From Bacteroidota bacterium (GTDB taxonomy: Bacteria; Bacteroidota; Bacteroidia; Flavobacteriales; JADGDT01), in assembly GCA_039714315.1 (NCBI GenBank), contig JBDLJM010000014.1:1-36867 (forward strand): a stretch of DNA of 36,867 nucleotides, in the 5' to 3' direction. The notes below the pieces were generated by a model. That model was not told the origin of the DNA, did not search any database, and saw only the letters and a program-made list of their open reading frames with translations. The position numbers and the translations under genes were made by a program. Numbering within the stretch: the stretch's first letter is position 1; each line of letters starts with the position of its first letter. Positions 25,772 through 35,647 of this stretch are shown here, piece by piece.

Positions 25772-27091
25772 TTATTTTGGATTCAGAGAAAACTCATTTC
25801 TTAAAACATCGCCTGATTTAACTCTTGCTTTTTTCAATACAGCTACAAATTCTTTTGGCGATACACCGCTTTCATCTGACATATAATTTCTTTTTTGTAA
25901 AATATTGAATTGCTTACTTAGTTCCGGGTTATTCAATAACAACTTATTGAATTCATCGACTCCATAAGACATTTTCCAGTTGTTAAATACTGTATAGAAT
26001 ATTTTTATTTTTTTTTGCGAAGCATTTTCCAGAGTCTTAAATAAATACTCTTCGCTTTTTCTTCGTATTAGTTTTCTTTCTTCCTGCTTTTTATAAATTT
26101 TTGCTCCTAATTTAATTATACGGAATAAAAACAGAATAACAACCAGAAGTATCAGTACAAACTGCCATGGCTTTAATCCAAGTATCAAAAATTCTTTTTC
26201 TTCCTCTACCTCAACGGGCTGTATTTGCGACTTTAAAAAAGCATCCAAAGAATCCTGTACACTCTGTGCATAAGCCAGGTCTTTATTTAGTTCTACTTTT
26301 ATTTTTCTTGCTTTTAAGTACTTAAAAGCTATTTTTTTTGTTCGGGGGTTAAAGAAATAGAACCTGATTTCAGGAAAGGTAAATTCTCCTTCCTCTGTGA
26401 GCAGATATTTTATCTTGTCGGTTCTGCTACCGTATATATTCTCTGTTTTTTTATTTTCATAAGTAGTAAAATCATCGGGATAGACAGATGCAAAATCCAA
26501 ACTGTCCTGTTTAAATTCCGGAATAAAATTAGGTAAAGTACCATTGGCTCGCACACTAACCGATCTGATAATTACATCGCCTGTAGTTAGATTATTCAAA
26601 GGTTTATTCCACTTTTCAGAAACAGAAATAGAGTTGGCTGTCATATTCCACTCGTGTTCCTTTGCTTCTTGCGGTATATCTGCGACATTTATTTTTATCG
26701 AACGGGTTTTTATTCTTCGTTTTTGACCTTTGTAGCCTCCATCAGGTGGGGTAACTACATTAACTGTCAACTCCGGAAATTCTATTTCTCCATTCTTATA
26801 AGGAAACAGCAAAAAGAAGAACTCAACTCCTGAATATTTTTTATTCTTGACATTGGTTGATATTGCAGTGTTACGCTGATACGGAACCAAAAAAGCACCA
26901 TCAATTTTAAGTTCTTCAAACTTTACCCCTTCCGTGAACCATGTTGATGTATAAACCTTTATCGTTACTTTAACACCCTGCCCTACATATACCTTTTTCG
27001 GAGACACCGATACTGTGGCAAAGGTGCTTTGGGCATCGATGTTTGTAACAAAGAAACTTAGGATTGTTAGTATGTATATTATTTTTTTCAT
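25772..27091 (-). CDS. batD: BatD-like protein
   Basis: The 439-residue protein, with the start chosen at the ATG at 27091 (MKKIIYILTILSFFVTNIDA), has a signal peptide. The open frame extends to 27106, but those codons come from the inserted repeat. Two Ig-like beta-sandwich domains follow (about 22-135 beginning FATVSVSPKKVYVGQGVKVT, and about 155-260). A transmembrane helix sits at about 300-325 (ILGLKPWQFVLILLVVILFL), then a basic cytoplasmic helical domain. Bat proteins with MoxR ATPases are associated with stress and oxygen tolerance. It is shorter than many BatD proteins, and is followed by the M48 gene. Confidence 0.8.
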   Translation of the reverse strand: MKKIIYILTILSFFVTNIDAQSTFATVSVSPKKVYVGQGVKVTIKVYTSTWFTEGVKFEELKIDGAFLVPYQRNTAISTNVKNKKYSGVEFFFLLFPYKNGEIEFPELTVNVVTPPDGGYKGQKRRIKTRSIKINVADIPQEAKEHEWNMTANSISVSEKWNKPLNNLTTGDVIIRSVSVRANGTLPNFIPEFKQDSLDFASVYPDDFTTYENKKTENIYGSRTDKIKYLLTEEGEFTFPEIRFYFFNPRTKKIAFKYLKARKIKVELNKDLAYAQSVQDSLDAFLKSQIQPVEVEEEKEFLILGLKPWQFVLILLVVILFLFRIIKLGAKIYKKQEERKLIRRKSEEYLFKTLENASQKKIKIFYTVFNNWKMSYGVDEFNKLLLNNPELSKQFNILQKRNYMSDESGVSPKEFVAVLKKARVKSGDVLRNEFSLNPK

Positions 27092-27535
27092 CTCGCAAAG
27101 GCGCACTTTACAATCTCCGTTATTCCGACCTTGTGGAGGAATCTCGTGATATTCACTGCATTATTTCAATAAATTCCCAATTCTGATTTTTCATTCCAAT
27201 CAACTTATCTTTCTTTTTTCTACTCCAGTTTTTCAATTGTTTTCCTCTTTCGATTACCTTATTTATATCTGTAAATTCTTCATAATAAAACAAATTATCG
27301 ACATTATATTTTTTAGTAAAACTAGATCCTCCTCCTGATTTATGCTAACTTAAACGTTTAGCTAAATTACTTGTAACTCCAATATATAATACTGTTTCCC
27401 TATCGTTGGTTAATATGTAAATATAACTTAATTGCATTTTTTCTTATTTAAAACGAGATTCCTCGACTTCGCTAAATCTTCGCTCGGAATGACGGTAGTA
27501 TATCACATTTTCCTTGCGTTGGCGCCTTTGCGAGA
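27092..27535 (-). mobile_element. Nested inverted-repeat element with GIY-YIG remnant, filling the BatB/BatD junction
   Basis: The segment is bounded by CTCGCAAAGGCGC (27092-27104) and its exact inverse GCGCCTTTGCGAG (27522-27534). One end touches the batD start codon and the other lies one base from the upstream stop codon. Inside is a second pair: GAGGAATCTCGT (27136-27147) against ACGAGATTCCTC (27453-27464), and ATTCCGA (27122-27128) against TCGGAAT (27484-27490). Inside that pair is a broken GIY-YIG gene. The inner element seems to have landed inside an outer one related to the segment at 29258-29430. Confidence 0.75.
27153..27437 (-). pseudogene. GIY-YIG nuclease gene with one in-frame stop
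   Basis: From the ATG at 27437 the frame reads MQLSYIYILTNDRETVLYIG, VTSNLAKRLS, then TAG (27347-27345), then HKSGGGSSFTKKYNVDNLFY, YEEFTDINKVIERGKQLKNW, and ends at 27153. The YIYIL...LYIG signature, the Arg in AKRL, and the conserved E/Q-HK after the Arg are those of small Bacteroidetes GIY-YIG endonucleases. The stop replaces a codon that is usually Gln or Glu, so a single C-to-T or G-to-T change explains it. Otherwise the frame is intact over 94 codons, implying recent inactivation. Confidence 0.88.
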
Positions 27536-29257
27536 TTACCAAATCTCCTCCCCCTGATCAACATTTTTATAATACTTCCTCTGTTGATACTGGAACTTCC
27601 TTTTCAGAAAAGTTTCCGGATCGGCACTAATTTTCCTGATCAGCATCTTTCTTGCATCCTGGTTCTGTTTCTTTTTATTATCGATTTCCATAGGCATATC
27701 TTCCGATTCTTTTGCTTTCCGAATGTTCGATTCAGTTTCATCGCTTAAACGATTTTCCATGTCTTTCGGTTTTTCTTTTACCTCCTGATTGGCATCGTCC
27801 AGGGATTCATCTTTATTTTTTGGCTTGCCTCTTCCTTTCTCATTAATCTTTTTCAGTGAATCAAGTCTTGCTTTGGGCAAATTGTCGTTCATCCAATTTT
27901 GCAGCAACTTTTCAGAATCTTTTGCCATAGTTAGTGTTGAATCCTTGGCATAAGCAGTTTCAAACGCCATCAATGCTTCGTTATAATTTCCGGCCTGCAT
28001 GTGTGCCAGCCCCAAATTATAAGAAGCCATAGCTGTTGTATCCTGAGAAAATTGTTCAATAGCCAAACTGTAATTGCCGTCTTTGTAATAAGCACTACCC
28101 TTTCTTATTGATTCGGTATATTTTGTTGCTGCATCATTAAATTCCCCTTCTTCCTCACGCATTTGTCCCTGATAATCTTTTGTATACCAAAGGTCATCGA
28201 ATGTTTCAATGTCGTTGCACGAAGAGAAAAACAATAGAATTACCGGTAAAAGTGAGAATCCTTTTCTAAACCAAAATAAACTTAAAATCAAAATAACCGG
28301 CATTAATAATATTCCTGAATCCTGCCAGTCTTCTTCGTTTTTTTCGTCTTTCAAAAATTCTTTCTGAGCTTTTACCTTTTCGGCAATAAGTTTCACATCG
28401 GTATTATCCAAAACCATAGGTACTACATCGCAATTTTCAATAGAACTAATGTTTTTTATTACGGAGGCATTTAATTTTGAATGAACCGGTTCCCCTTTTA
28501 TATCTTTCAAGGTTCCTTTGCCACGGAATGCCGGAACATTTGCACCCGCTATTGTAGCTAAAGGCATAAGGAAAAAATTGTGCTTTTCATTTGAACAGAA
28601 CTCCCGGATTGCATTGTAATCATTATTTCCGGGTGAATCGGTCAGAACAAACAAACTCAATGGTGAATCGCCGGGAGTAATAGAATCGGCCAACTCAATT
28701 GCTAAAGGTAAATTTGAACCTTTTACATAGAGTATTTTTGGTGAAAGTGGATTGAGATACTCCTCAATGATTGAATAGTCGTTCGTAGCCGGAACCACCA
28801 AATGCGCCGTTCCTTCATACACAATCAGTCCGGTGCTCGAATGCGGATTCTCCTTGAATAAATCTTTAATCTTGAACTTGGCTCTTTCCAATCGGTTCGG
28901 TTGCAAATCCTTGGCAAGCATCGACTGGGAAATATCAAGCACTATGTAGAAAACCGATTTGGTTTTAGTGCCCGGTTTTTCTATCATTTTCCAACTCGGT
29001 CCCGACATTGCTATAATCAGAATTGAAAAAAACAATACAAACAAAAACCTGTTTAACCATATATTTTTATCGTTGTGATTAACTATTACAAATTGACGAA
29101 GATGTGTTGCTATATTTTCCTGCCATTTGTGTTCTTTGTTTTTTACAAAAATCATCAATACTAAAATCACAACGAAGGGCACAAATGCCCATAGCCATTC
29201 CGGTCTCAAAAAATGAAACTCTTCCCAGTTGATATTTAATAGTTCTTTGTATTCCAT
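27536..29257 (-). CDS. batB: BatB/BatC-type protein: von Willebrand domain fused to TPR
   Basis: The 573-residue protein starts at the ATG at 29257 (MEYKELLNINWEEFHFLRPE); the longer frame enters the inserted repeat. Order: one transmembrane helix at about 20-38 and another near 60-80; a von Willebrand A domain (about 90-300) with the metal site DISQSM and VLTDSPGNND; a transmembrane pair near 325-355; TPR units (about 370-450, SLAIEQFSQDTTAMASYNLG); and a charged Lys/Glu tail. In many Bacteroidetes BatB and BatC are separate; here they are one chain. The metal-site DxSxS is intact, so ligand binding is plausible. Both gene borders carry inverted-repeat elements. Confidence 0.85.
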   Translation of the reverse strand: MEYKELLNINWEEFHFLRPEWLWAFVPFVVILVLMIFVKNKEHKWQENIATHLRQFVIVNHNDKNIWLNRFLFVLFFSILIIAMSGPSWKMIEKPGTKTKSVFYIVLDISQSMLAKDLQPNRLERAKFKIKDLFKENPHSSTGLIVYEGTAHLVVPATNDYSIIEEYLNPLSPKILYVKGSNLPLAIELADSITPGDSPLSLFVLTDSPGNNDYNAIREFCSNEKHNFFLMPLATIAGANVPAFRGKGTLKDIKGEPVHSKLNASVIKNISSIENCDVVPMVLDNTDVKLIAEKVKAQKEFLKDEKNEEDWQDSGILLMPVILILSLFWFRKGFSLLPVILLFFSSCNDIETFDDLWYTKDYQGQMREEEGEFNDAATKYTESIRKGSAYYKDGNYSLAIEQFSQDTTAMASYNLGLAHMQAGNYNEALMAFETAYAKDSTLTMAKDSEKLLQNWMNDNLPKARLDSLKKINEKGRGKPKNKDESLDDANQEVKEKPKDMENRLSDETESNIRKAKESEDMPMEIDNKKKQNQDARKMLIRKISADPETFLKRKFQYQQRKYYKNVDQGEEIW

Positions 29258-29430
29258 CTCGCAAAGGCGCAAAGACGCAAAGCGTTCAGCTATAAATTAT
29301 TGACAATTCTGGTTATTCCGTTTTTAATTAATTTTTCATTAAAATTAATTAGTAGTATATCTACTTATATTTTTGGTATCTCATTTTCCGTCATATCTTA
29401 AATCTCTTTGAGTCTCGACGGCTTTGCGAG
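29258..29430 (-). mobile_element. Inverted-repeat element with GxxExxY remnant, filling the BatA/BatB junction
   Basis: Bounded by CTCGCAAAG (29258-29266) and CTTTGCGAG (29422-29430). It fills exactly the space between the batA stop codon and the batB start codon. Its batB-side end, CTCGCAAAGGCGCA, is identical for 14 bases to the batD-side end of the element at 27092. The same side continues AAGACGCAAAGCG, a run of CGCAAAG-like units. A deleted nuclease gene lies inside in operon orientation. Confidence 0.75.
29290..29394 (-). pseudogene. Internally deleted GxxExxY-type nuclease gene
   Basis: From the ATG at 29394 the frame reads MTENEIPKI, TAA, VD, then ILLINFNEKLIKN, GITRIVNNL and TAG at 29290. 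MTENEI+KI+VD is how GxxExxY proteins (TIGR04256-type, PD-(D/E)xK-like) begin, and LLINFN..L.K.GI.RIVNNL is how they end. The central part, including GxxExxY itself, is missing: 35 codons remain of about 125. I matched both ends from memory of the family. The deletion leaves the frame in register apart from one stop. Confidence 0.78.
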
Positions 29431-30441
29431 CTATTTTATAACACTTTTAACAAGCCTCACAAACACAGCAAACAAATAATAAACTACTCCCAGCAAATAT
29501 GCTATACCAAGAGGGTAGAAATAAAGCAAAGTAACAGGTTTATAACTTTCCTCCTCGTATTCCATTGGTTCGTATTTATTAAGTGTTTCTGTTATTTTTT
29601 GCAATGAATTTTCATCATCAGCTTTAAAATACTCTCCTCCACTTATAGAAGCTATTTCTTTCAATGTATTCTCGTCAAGCTCATAAGAACCTGCTCCTTT
29701 TTGTCCAATCCCCAAAGTATAAATTGTGATTGAATCTTTCTTGGCAATAGCAGCGGCATCCAGTGGAAGTATATCGCTTCCGCTGTCAACACCATCGGTC
29801 ATTACCAGCATTACTTTGTACTTAATACTGTCTTTTTCAAACATTTCTATACCTTTGGCTATAGCATTTCCTATCGAAGTCATTTGTCCTGCCATGCCTA
29901 CTGCTACATCATCCATCATACTGTTTACCAAATTCAAATCGGTAGTAAACGGTGCCTGCGTATAAGCCTGCGAACCAAAAAACACCAACCCCATCCTGTC
30001 TCCTTCACGCGTGTCTACAAAATCGTGAAGAACATCCTTTACACCATCCCATCGACTAACCTTACCATTATCTGTTGGCCAGTCTTTTTCGTCCATACTC
30101 AGGGACAAATCGGCAACTATTAGGAAATTTCGCGAATTTTTCACTTTTTTCTCCGGAATACCTACCAACTGTGGCGACGAAAATGCCAACAGTAATAAAG
30201 CCCAGATAACTATCAAAAAAATCCACTTATACCACTTATTACCCTGTGATTTGTTCAAAGAGATTTCTTTTGAATCTAATAATCTCTTAATATTTGAATA
30301 TGCCGGAGAAAAAAGTGCCTTTTTATTACTTCTTATAGCGGGTATAATAAGCCATACCAATATTGGAATAGGAAATAAGTAGAATACCCATATATGCTGT
30401 ATTTCTACCGATGATAATGATATGTCAAATAATTCTTCCAA
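29431..30441 (-). CDS. batA: BatA-like von Willebrand factor A protein
   Basis: A 336-residue membrane protein: an N-terminal transmembrane helix (about 17-36, WVFYLFPIPILVWLI), a second at about 70-88, a von Willebrand A domain (about 100-285) with the intact metal site DLSLSMDEKD and VMTDGVDSGSD, and a closing transmembrane helix (about 305-330). The start codon is TTG at 30441, two bases after the DUF4381 stop; no nearby ATG would keep the first helix. In the Bat system these proteins act with a MoxR ATPase in the cell envelope. The stop codon directly abuts the inverted-repeat element. Confidence 0.88.
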   Translation of the reverse strand: MEELFDISLSSVEIQHIWVFYLFPIPILVWLIIPAIRSNKKALFSPAYSNIKRLLDSKEISLNKSQGNKWYKWIFLIVIWALLLLAFSSPQLVGIPEKKVKNSRNFLIVADLSLSMDEKDWPTDNGKVSRWDGVKDVLHDFVDTREGDRMGLVFFGSQAYTQAPFTTDLNLVNSMMDDVAVGMAGQMTSIGNAIAKGIEMFEKDSIKYKVMLVMTDGVDSGSDILPLDAAAIAKKDSITIYTLGIGQKGAGSYELDENTLKEIASISGGEYFKADDENSLQKITETLNKYEPMEYEEESYKPVTLLYFYPLGIAYLLGVVYYLFAVFVRLVKSVIK

Positions 30442-30887: not shown

Positions 30888-30888
30888 T

Positions 30889-30963
30889 TTACTGGTTACT
30901 GGTTACTGGTTACTGGTTACTGGTTACTGGTTACTGGTTACTGGTTACTGGTTACTGGTTACT
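30889..30963. repeat. 7-base tandem repeat (TTACTGG) of about 10.7 units before the DUF4381 start
   Basis: The 75-base array of TTACTGG (CCAGTAA on the coding strand) is perfect throughout and ends 1 base from the start codon at 30887. Perfect short arrays are prone to slippage, so length may vary between cells. Confidence 0.95.
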
Positions 30964-31005
30964 ATGCTTGTCGAAGGACTGATTACAATCTATGAACTAT
31001 CACCT

Positions 31006-31060
31006 CTTTCTTCTTTTATCTTTCTTCTTTTATCTTTCCTCTTTTATCTTTCTTCTTTAC
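31006..31060. repeat. Four 14-base pyrimidine-rich tandem repeats
   Basis: Units of CTTTCTTCTTTTAT start at 31006, 31020, 31034 and 31048 with one substitution in the third; the last is cut short. They lie just after the DUF58 stop, next to the 7-base array. Confidence 0.85.
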
Positions 31061-31070
31061 CCATACAAAC

Positions 31071-33252: not shown

Positions 33253-33303
33253 CTGTTAATAATTTTAGATTATTGATGTTTACAGACTTACCGGCTTCGT
33301 AGT

Positions 33304-33508
33304 TTATCGGTTGTACGAATTCGTATTGTCGGTAACATCATTTACAAATGATATTATTTTTGATTTTACATCTCCTTCATTCCAAAAGCTTAAAACTCCT
33401 TTTTTAGAATCTTCATCTTGCCGTTGATTCTGTATACTTTTCTGTTGGAAACTTGTGAAAGTAAATCCTATTGTGGTAATAAATAATACAATAAAAAAAA
33501 CTTCTCAT
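33304..33508 (-). pseudogene. Truncated head of a HAD phosphatase paralogue
   Basis: Starting at the ATG at 33508 the frame is broken in a run of eight T (A-run 33493-33500). With one T removed it reads MRSFFIVLFITTIGFTFTSF as a signal peptide, then QQKSIQNQRQ, GVLSFWNEGDVKSKIISFVN and DVTDNTNSYNR, then TAA at 33304. WNEGDVKSKIISFV matches WNEGQAKSSIISYV of the phosphatase at 34622 (residues about 46-59). The sequence ends before the phosphatase active-site DNDGT, so this is a relic of a copy. I found no sign of the rest of the gene in the 300-base gap. Confidence 0.75.
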
Positions 33509-33561
33509 AATTATTTTTTCGTGCAATTACAATGTTTTATTATTACATTACCAACTAGTTA

Positions 33562-34621: not shown

Positions 34622-35647
34622 CTATTCAGGGAAAACTGTCTTCCAGTCTTTTTCCATATCTACAACTGTCCAGTTATTTTTTCCGGCTTCAATAAGTGCT
34701 TTATCAAGTTTACCTACATGCGATTCTTTGTCATAAGCCCATTCTCTTATAGAGTCAGTATGATGTATCAACAGGTTGAAATATCCTTTTTCATTGGTTT
34801 GTGCATATTGCATCATTTGCAAATCACCATCTGAGTTTCCTGCTACAAATACCGGTTTTTTACCAATGTATTTATAAATTCCGGCAGGTTTACCGGCTTT
34901 ATCATCAATAAATTCCATCTCCGGCAGCCTTTGTATTTTTTTGGTTTCTTCGTTGTATTTAACCTTAATGCTCGAACCAATTGTCATATATTGAGGTACA
35001 CCATAAGTTTCGCAGGCAAATTCTCTCATAAAATCTCTTCCTCCACCCGAAACAATAAATACTTTAAAATCATTGTTTCGCAGATAGTCCATTAATTCCA
35101 GCATTGGCTGGAATATCAGCTCGTTATATTTTCTGTTTTTTGTTGGGTGTTCGGTTTCGCTCAACCATCTTTTTACTCCTTCTGCAAACTCTTCGTCAGT
35201 TGAGTTACCATGAGTTATCAATGCCAATTTTACAAGTCCGTGTTCGCCGTGTTTAGCTAATGTTTTAAAGTCGCGGTCAACGGCTGCTTTTATCAACTCA
35301 TCTTTTAATAACTCCGGTTTTTCTTTTACCAATGTATCCAGAGTGTACAGGGTAAAATATAATTGAAAATAGAAGGGTTTTTCACTCCATAGAGTACCAT
35401 CATTATCGAATGTTGCGATTCTATCTTCAGGTTCAATAAAGTTTTTATTCTTAGGATCGCTTATTGATTCCACATAAGAAATAATGGATGATTTTGCTTG
35501 ACCTTCGTTCCATGTTAGTAAAGGATCTGCTGTTTCAGTGCTATCAGTAGTATATTTTTTTCCGGGGCTTGATGCGTCGGAAGTATAAATAACTAACATT
35601 AGTAGCGAAATAACCACTACTAAACCGGTTGAGAATAATTTCTTCAT
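34622..35647 (-). CDS. Secreted HAD-superfamily phosphatase
   Basis: A 341-residue enzyme with an N-terminal signal or anchor (MKKLFSTGLVVVISLLMLVI). HAD motifs are visible: DNDGTLW (nucleophile Asp, about residues 85-91) in IATFDNDGTLWSEKPFYF, the second motif Ser in FIVSGGGRDFMREFA, the lysine in KPAGIYKYIGKKP, and the last acidic pair VAGNSDGDLQMMQYA. It probably removes phosphate from an organic substrate in the periplasm. A decayed partial copy of its first 60 codons lies near 33304. It is separated from the sulfatase by a strong terminator. Confidence 0.88.
   Translation of the reverse strand: MKKLFSTGLVVVISLLMLVIYTSDASSPGKKYTTDSTETADPLLTWNEGQAKSSIISYVESISDPKNKNFIEPEDRIATFDNDGTLWSEKPFYFQLYFTLYTLDTLVKEKPELLKDELIKAAVDRDFKTLAKHGEHGLVKLALITHGNSTDEEFAEGVKRWLSETEHPTKNRKYNELIFQPMLELMDYLRNNDFKVFIVSGGGRDFMREFACETYGVPQYMTIGSSIKVKYNEETKKIQRLPEMEFIDDKAGKPAGIYKYIGKKPVFVAGNSDGDLQMMQYAQTNEKGYFNLLIHHTDSIREWAYDKESHVGKLDKALIEAGKNNWTVVDMEKDWKTVFPE

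Follow-up and report, generated by a model that had tools for sequence, protein, structure and literature searches.

Inverted short-unit arms around GxxExxY nuclease genes at gene junctions, and two probable decayed elements in a Bacteroidota Bat operon

The intervening sequences (IVS) of 23S rRNA are a few hundred base pairs long and consist of one small, decaying ORF placed between terminal inverted repeats that form a stem; they were called selfish and possibly once mobile (PMC4990558). In the REPIN/RAYT systems, short extragenic palindromes, dispersed also as gene-less copies, are linked to an encoded nuclease-like enzyme (PMC3116915, PMC3686654, PMC3733652). The GxxExxY family (TIGR04256, PF13366) is rarely mentioned in the open-access literature searched (GxxExxY in two papers and PF13366 in one, at least one of the mentions being in passing; subscription papers were outside the search), and neither an account of its function nor a description of arms flanking its genes was found there. 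Free-standing homing endonucleases of the GIY-YIG and PD-(D/E)XK types are small intergenic nuclease genes that decay after fixation and are transferred across phyla. MITEs and the palindromic elements of Rickettsia are gene-less hairpins, which share the arms of a gene-bearing partner.

The window analysed here, i.e., the whole stretch of 36,867 nucleotides of contig JBDLJM010000014.1 from a Bacteroidota bacterium, contains a Bat operon on the minus strand, and two of its junctions are filled completely by inverted-repeat segments, 27092-27534 (element 1) and 29258-29430 (element 2). Element 2 directly adjoins both the batA stop codon (29431-29433, minus strand) and the batB ATG (29255-29257); element 1 lies one base from the batB stop codon (27536-27538) and directly adjoins the batD ATG. 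An earlier note on this DNA had described both segments as spanning stop-to-start junctions with related inverted ends, and the coordinates and the repeat alignment bear this out, the terminal inverted repeats being 22 nt at 86% in element 1 and 25 nt at 80% in element 2. The features of the region are the following:

25772..27091, minus strand: batD, downstream neighbour of element 1 (PF13584)
27092..27104, minus strand: outer arm of element 1 beside the batD ATG (CTCGCAAAGGCGC read on the plus strand), GxxExxY-type (repeat alignment, genome count)
27117..27147, minus strand: inner arm of element 1, from the GIY-YIG element (CCGTTATTCCGACC...GGAATCTCGT read on the plus strand), a repeat kind found around GIY-YIG genes elsewhere
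27153..27437, minus strand: decayed gene for a GIY-YIG nuclease, interrupted in frame by one TAG at 27345-27347 (PF01541, E 1.8e-16, the stop being read as X)
27453..27495, minus strand: inner arm of element 1, from the GIY-YIG element (CCGTCATTCCGAGCGAAG...GAGGAATCTCGT on the minus strand; repeat alignment, genome-wide sites)
27522..27534, minus strand: outer arm of element 1 beside the batB stop, GxxExxY-type (repeat alignment, genome count)
27536..29257, minus strand: batB-TPR fusion gene between elements 1 and 2 (VWA and TPR domains, orthologues in relatives)
29258..29282, minus strand: arm of element 2 beside the batB ATG, three CGCAAAG-type units at 8-bp spacing
29290..29355, minus strand: C-terminal GxxExxY remnant of element 2 (LLINFNEKLIKNGITRIVNNL, then stop), 90% identity over 21 residues to the intact gene of a relative (G001, see below)
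29365..29394, minus strand: N-terminal GxxExxY remnant of element 2 (MTENEIPKI, then stop), followed by the internal deletion (compared with the intact gene)
29406..29430, minus strand: arm of element 2 beside the batA stop (sequence, inverted-repeat alignment)
29431..30441, minus strand: batA, upstream neighbour of element 2 (VWA domain)

Exact copies of CTCGCAAAGGCGC number four in the whole 3.4-Mb genome, and three of those are located in the region of elements 1 and 2. The RNA folds of both segments are far stronger than those of dinucleotide shuffles (z -3.7 and -4.0), and Rfam gave no match at 26500-30000 of the window. As in the 23S rRNA IVS, the terminal inverted repeats of both segments form a long stem around one small ORF; the segments are situated between protein genes of the Bat operon, not in 23S rRNA, and contain no transposase gene.

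Element 2 is a GxxExxY element with an internal deletion. Since only the two protein ends are kept, the copy in the window is a remnant, and the description of a GxxExxY-like gene that had lost its middle proved accurate. In G001, a genome of the same genus, an intact GxxExxY gene of 125 residues, flanked by the same kind of arms, is found at the batB-batD junction; the encoded protein, with the motif GMLESVY, is a clear member of TIGR04256 / PF13366 (144.5 bits, cut-off 35). The batA-batB junction of G001 falls in an assembly gap, and the comparison with this genome covers batB-batD only. Between batB and the intact gene of G001 (locus L022, 7984-8478) there is a 102-bp unit repeated 4.9 times, and each unit includes one arm and a copy of the batB 3′ end.

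The gene in element 1 was likewise correctly recognized as GIY-YIG with one stop, as it matches PF01541 with 60.6 bits (gathering cut-off 22.6) when X is put at the single TAG. The earlier note missed a second, inner inverted pair of another kind inside this segment (27117-27147 and 27453-27495). The inner-repeat pattern has 23 sites in the window genome, as compared with one for the reversed pattern, and some of the 23 have no CTCGCAAAGGCGC copy near them. The GIY-YIG genes of other Bacteroidota are accompanied by GTCATYC palindromes (GTCATYCYGA), i.e., the same kind as the inner arms of element 1, and they are free of the CRCWRAG arms found around GxxExxY genes (0.05 units per arm; at least three units in none of the 29 examined). 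The most likely history of element 1 is that a GIY-YIG element, equipped with GTCATTCCGAG arms, entered a CTCGCAAAGGCGC-armed GxxExxY copy and later decayed. Such nesting is the simplest reading because an intact GxxExxY gene occupies the same junction in G001, and it accounts for the outer ends common to elements 1 and 2. The stretches between the outer and inner arms resemble the ends of GxxExxY genes weakly (26 nt, p about 0.02-0.04), and for both sides together the likeness is only suggestive (p 0.05).

As the genus and the family together comprise only three genomes, the search for batB orthologues was taken to the order level. batB and batD overlap by 17-28 bp in three order-level outgroups, and batA and batB overlap by 4 bp in one outgroup locus (L038). 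Because the outgroup genes overlap there, both junctions became filled only once the outgroups had branched off; the relatives lacking the insert, which were to be compared for unrelated long spacers, have overlapping genes instead. In another outgroup (G008, locus L037, 3995-4411), where batA is not adjacent, a small ORF resembling Y1 (IS200/RAYT-like) transposases was seen by eye upstream of batB. The outer shell at batB-batD probably predates the divergence from G001, so from the proposal of two independent insertions the two filled junctions stand, and their independence is open to this other reading. The earlier note had explained both segments by one inverted-repeat family, whose members carry a nuclease of one type or the other, GIY-YIG or GxxExxY, and inserted independently at the two adjacent junctions. 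The outer ends common to both segments speak for it, yet it has to face the different arms, lacking CRCWRAG units, of GIY-YIG genes elsewhere, the complete inner GIY-type arm pair, the 23 sites of that inner repeat, only some of which are near a CTCGCAAAGGCGC copy, and the GxxExxY gene present at the element 1 junction in G001, and it is very unlikely. Since element 1 is most likely nested, G001 has an armed GxxExxY gene there and the outgroup genes overlap, the nucleases are not interchangeable within one family.

The arms are a general property of GxxExxY genes. At most of 80 loci of subfamily I, which belong to more than ten phyla, CRCWRAG units spaced 8-17 bp apart form inverted arms. Counted in the inverted sense, there are 2.19 units per 160 bp upstream and 2.53 downstream, as compared with 0.086 at distant positions of these loci, and units in the other sense amount to 0.75 per 160 bp around the genes. 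At least two units are present in 57/77 and 59/75 flanks and in 31/3370 control segments. Several of the statistics of this analysis count related genomes as independent. In subfamily II the arms are built of CRCDRATT units (1.47 per arm, 0.07 in subfamily I), and CRCWRAG, with 2.10 units per arm in subfamily I, falls there to background (0.08); IVP (PF05635) genes have arms of other short units. The tie between repeats and nuclease, against which a lack of association elsewhere would have spoken, is thus strong and specific across phyla for GxxExxY. A plain inverted-repeat score against mismatched loci (15/72 loci over the 99th percentile of the null) was replaced by the motif test; it understated the effect, because arms of different loci share words. 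GxxExxY genes occur in 167/345 and PF05635 genes in 157/198 Bacteroidota genomes (even samples), and their abundance in this phylum makes a role for them of interest. No GxxExxY match was found in phages, plasmids gave eight records, and PADLOC and PHROGs gave no match for GxxExxY; for GIY-YIG one marginal match was obtained in PADLOC (E 0.0009). PF05635 (23S_rRNA_IVP) genes at loci L150-L179 number up to 16 per Bacteroidota genome, and in most cases they lie in directons, flanked by arrays of units of 7-10 bp.

The arm type follows the nuclease tree. Mapped on the protein tree, the lead type of the arm (CTCGC or AACCRC) requires 4 changes versus 20.6 in shuffles; with one locus per genomic context it requires 1 change versus a mean of 9.8 (minimum 7), and within Bacteroidota alone 1 versus 9.1. 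As a single change remains both with one locus per context and within Bacteroidota, the linkage of arm and nuclease reflects neither host composition nor inheritance at a single site. The two arms of one element also match each other better than same-type arms of other loci (mean rank 0.77-0.80). Since the arm sequence tracks the nuclease tree across genomic locations, gene and arms constitute one heritable, transferable unit. The gene is then one half of this unit and a clade-specific inverted arm array is the other, which gives GxxExxY genes a testable role, i.e., recognition of the arms. It could be argued that REP-like palindromes were gathered at junctions by other transposases, e.g., of RAYT type, and that the nuclease genes are captured passengers. 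Arms can indeed grow without a gene, as in the nested, layered arms of locus L252 and the 102-bp tandem unit of G001, but clade-exact linkage to the nuclease and arms in over ten phyla are unexpected for passengers, and in the loci read a single Y1-transposase-like ORF was noticed (that in L037, by eye); such a capture is barely credible.

A given junction may be empty in one relative and re-occupied by another kind of element in the next, and arms persist as hairpins once the gene is lost. This was observed at the hemW-cyclase junction of Flavobacterium (genus inferred from same-locus records), where the 30 best-scoring of 61 loci, which are not a random set, were compared. Two of these sites are nearly empty (22 and 33 bp), six carry a complete GxxExxY element, and twelve carry only a hairpin of 74-105 bp that has CRCWRAG-type arms and no gene; GIY-YIG elements, flanked by arms of their own kind, occupy two sites, and hairpins built of a different word occupy three. 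Hairpins of a further kind, with CGCTGATA/CACTGAT units, were seen at this junction in L233, L235, L251 and L236. The gmd-fcl junction is occupied by a type I GxxExxY gene in the window genome and by a type II gene in G001, so the proposal that gene borders are taken by elements holds at both junctions, which were re-occupied by different element kinds. The first 9 nt past the stop codon at gmd-fcl (ATTGCGAAT) are common to L031 and L034 and may represent the tip of a type II arm that was there earlier. Junctions such as hemW, gmd-fcl and batB-batD thus provide, each at a single site, natural series of gain, nesting, gene loss and near-clean loss.

A strict pattern for hairpins without a gene, which misses imperfect hairpins including those of the window genome, was found in 9/296 genomes, all nine of which have GxxExxY genes, and the reversed pattern was found in none. 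At none of the 16 gene-less hairpin loci read was a GxxExxY gene recognisable within 1.5 kb. For the elements in general, the analysis yielded no target-site duplication, no excision product and no identical recent copies within one genome, and the flanks are too diverged for a duplication to be read. Seemingly identical within-genome copies in G366 and G306, apparently due to redundant contig ends, were left out. The arm-plus-gene unit explains a large set of intergenic hairpins.

The linkage of arm and nuclease would also be expected if the nuclease merely regulates itself through the arms. According to this explanation the arms are binding sites, or a 3′-UTR hairpin, for self-control of the nuclease or for protection of the operon mRNA, and the spread is passive, by recombination and horizontal transfer. 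It agrees with arms that outlive the gene as stable hairpins with strong RNA folds and with elements positioned close past stop codons in transcription order; in the arms-only hairpins of the hemW set there is also a compensatory change in one of seven consensus pairs (A-U to G-C in 4/12 sequences, with the arm alignment unsure). Self-regulation alone, however, leaves unexplained the repeated, different occupants of one junction (hemW, gmd-fcl), the filled Bat junctions where outgroup genes overlap and the gene-less hairpins at unrelated loci remote from any GxxExxY gene, and as the whole explanation this main alternative is rather unlikely.

Which activity could the nuclease contribute? The AF2 model of the GxxExxY protein (pLDDT 96.6) has a PD-(D/E)XK fold, and D67, E77 and K79, i.e., a D...ExK active site, are conserved in 72 sequences. 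The best PDB match of the model is Cas4 SSO0001 (Z 9.4); Hjc resolvases score Z 5.7-6.7 and, taken together with type II restriction enzymes, Z 5.6-6.9, which is a middling range. Judging from the modelled fold, GxxExxY is plausibly an active nuclease on branched or duplex DNA. The two Bat segments are probably decayed small selfish elements of gene junctions, whose core is a GxxExxY gene between inverted arms, and copying driven by the nuclease is slightly favoured as the way in which such elements spread. The core unit is a gene for a PD-(D/E)XK nuclease of 125 residues between two short arrays of CRCWRAG-like units 8-17 bp apart. The nuclease, expressed via read-through from the host operon, may recognise the arms either in duplex form, unit by unit, or after extrusion into a hairpin or cruciform, a proposal that draws on the fold shared with Hjc, Cas4 and lambda-exonuclease-like enzymes. 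By a cut-and-repair route similar to homing, it could then start the copying of the element, and of derivatives without the gene, to new junctions, and insertion past a stop codon would be what selection tolerates. More tentatively, GxxExxY proteins can be proposed as mobility enzymes of undescribed cross-phylum miniature elements, each clade reading an arm word specific to it (CRCWRAG, CRCDRATT or a variant) and moving arm-plus-gene units and gene-less hairpins to borders past stops, with GIY-YIG and IVP genes at the head of parallel classes with their own words.

The gene-plus-arms unit is located within directons and is read in the direction of the gene upstream of it. For elements faced by a stop codon, the distance from stop to arm has a median of 14 bp, and in 28/66 cases it is within 10 bp. 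Taken over the four gene families, 142/158 upstream genes are co-directional, a bias that is large against 50:50 and moderate against the measured baseline of 73% for other neighbours; for GIY-YIG alone the bias is not significant against the baseline (p 0.37). Position and orientation fit read-through expression and tolerated insertion just past stop codons, although alone they are no proof of targeting, and a part of the junction preference may be mere selection against gene breakage.

Among described systems, IVS and REPIN/RAYT are the closest kinds, and GxxExxY elements belong to neither. IVS with an S23p/IVP ORF (PF05635) are alike in small size, single ORF, terminal stem and ORF decay, and the PF05635 genes outside rRNA examined here also lie between inverted short-unit arrays in gene junctions; unlike IVS, GxxExxY elements are found outside rRNA, encode a PD-(D/E)XK nuclease and have other arm words. 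With REPIN/RAYT they share extragenic palindromes, an encoded enzyme and gene-less copies, but the enzyme is PD-(D/E)XK and not a Y1 HuH tyrosine transposase, which places them outside that group, and the gene is flanked on either side by an array of 7-bp words, with few copies per genome. Homing endonucleases differ in that GxxExxY elements have conserved inverted arms matched to the nuclease clade and their apparent target is gene borders rather than conserved coding sequence, and MITEs differ in that GxxExxY elements lack a DDE transposase and a demonstrated target-site duplication. The nuclease-plus-arms elements are a widespread kind, apparently undescribed judging from the open-access literature searched.

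Two further intergenic stretches of the operon deserve mention. In a third junction, between the DUF58 and DUF4381 genes (window 30888-31070), two arrays of 7-bp units extend up to the ATG, TAACCAG repeated 10.7 times and a 14-bp AAAGATAAAAGAAG unit repeated 3.9 times, and they resemble the arms of IVP (PF05635) genes. At 33253-33561, between two operon genes, there is an apparent pseudogene fragment (WNEGDVKSKIISFVNDVTDN and more), which by eye resembles the dehalogenase-like gene at 34622-35647 in its N-terminal part.
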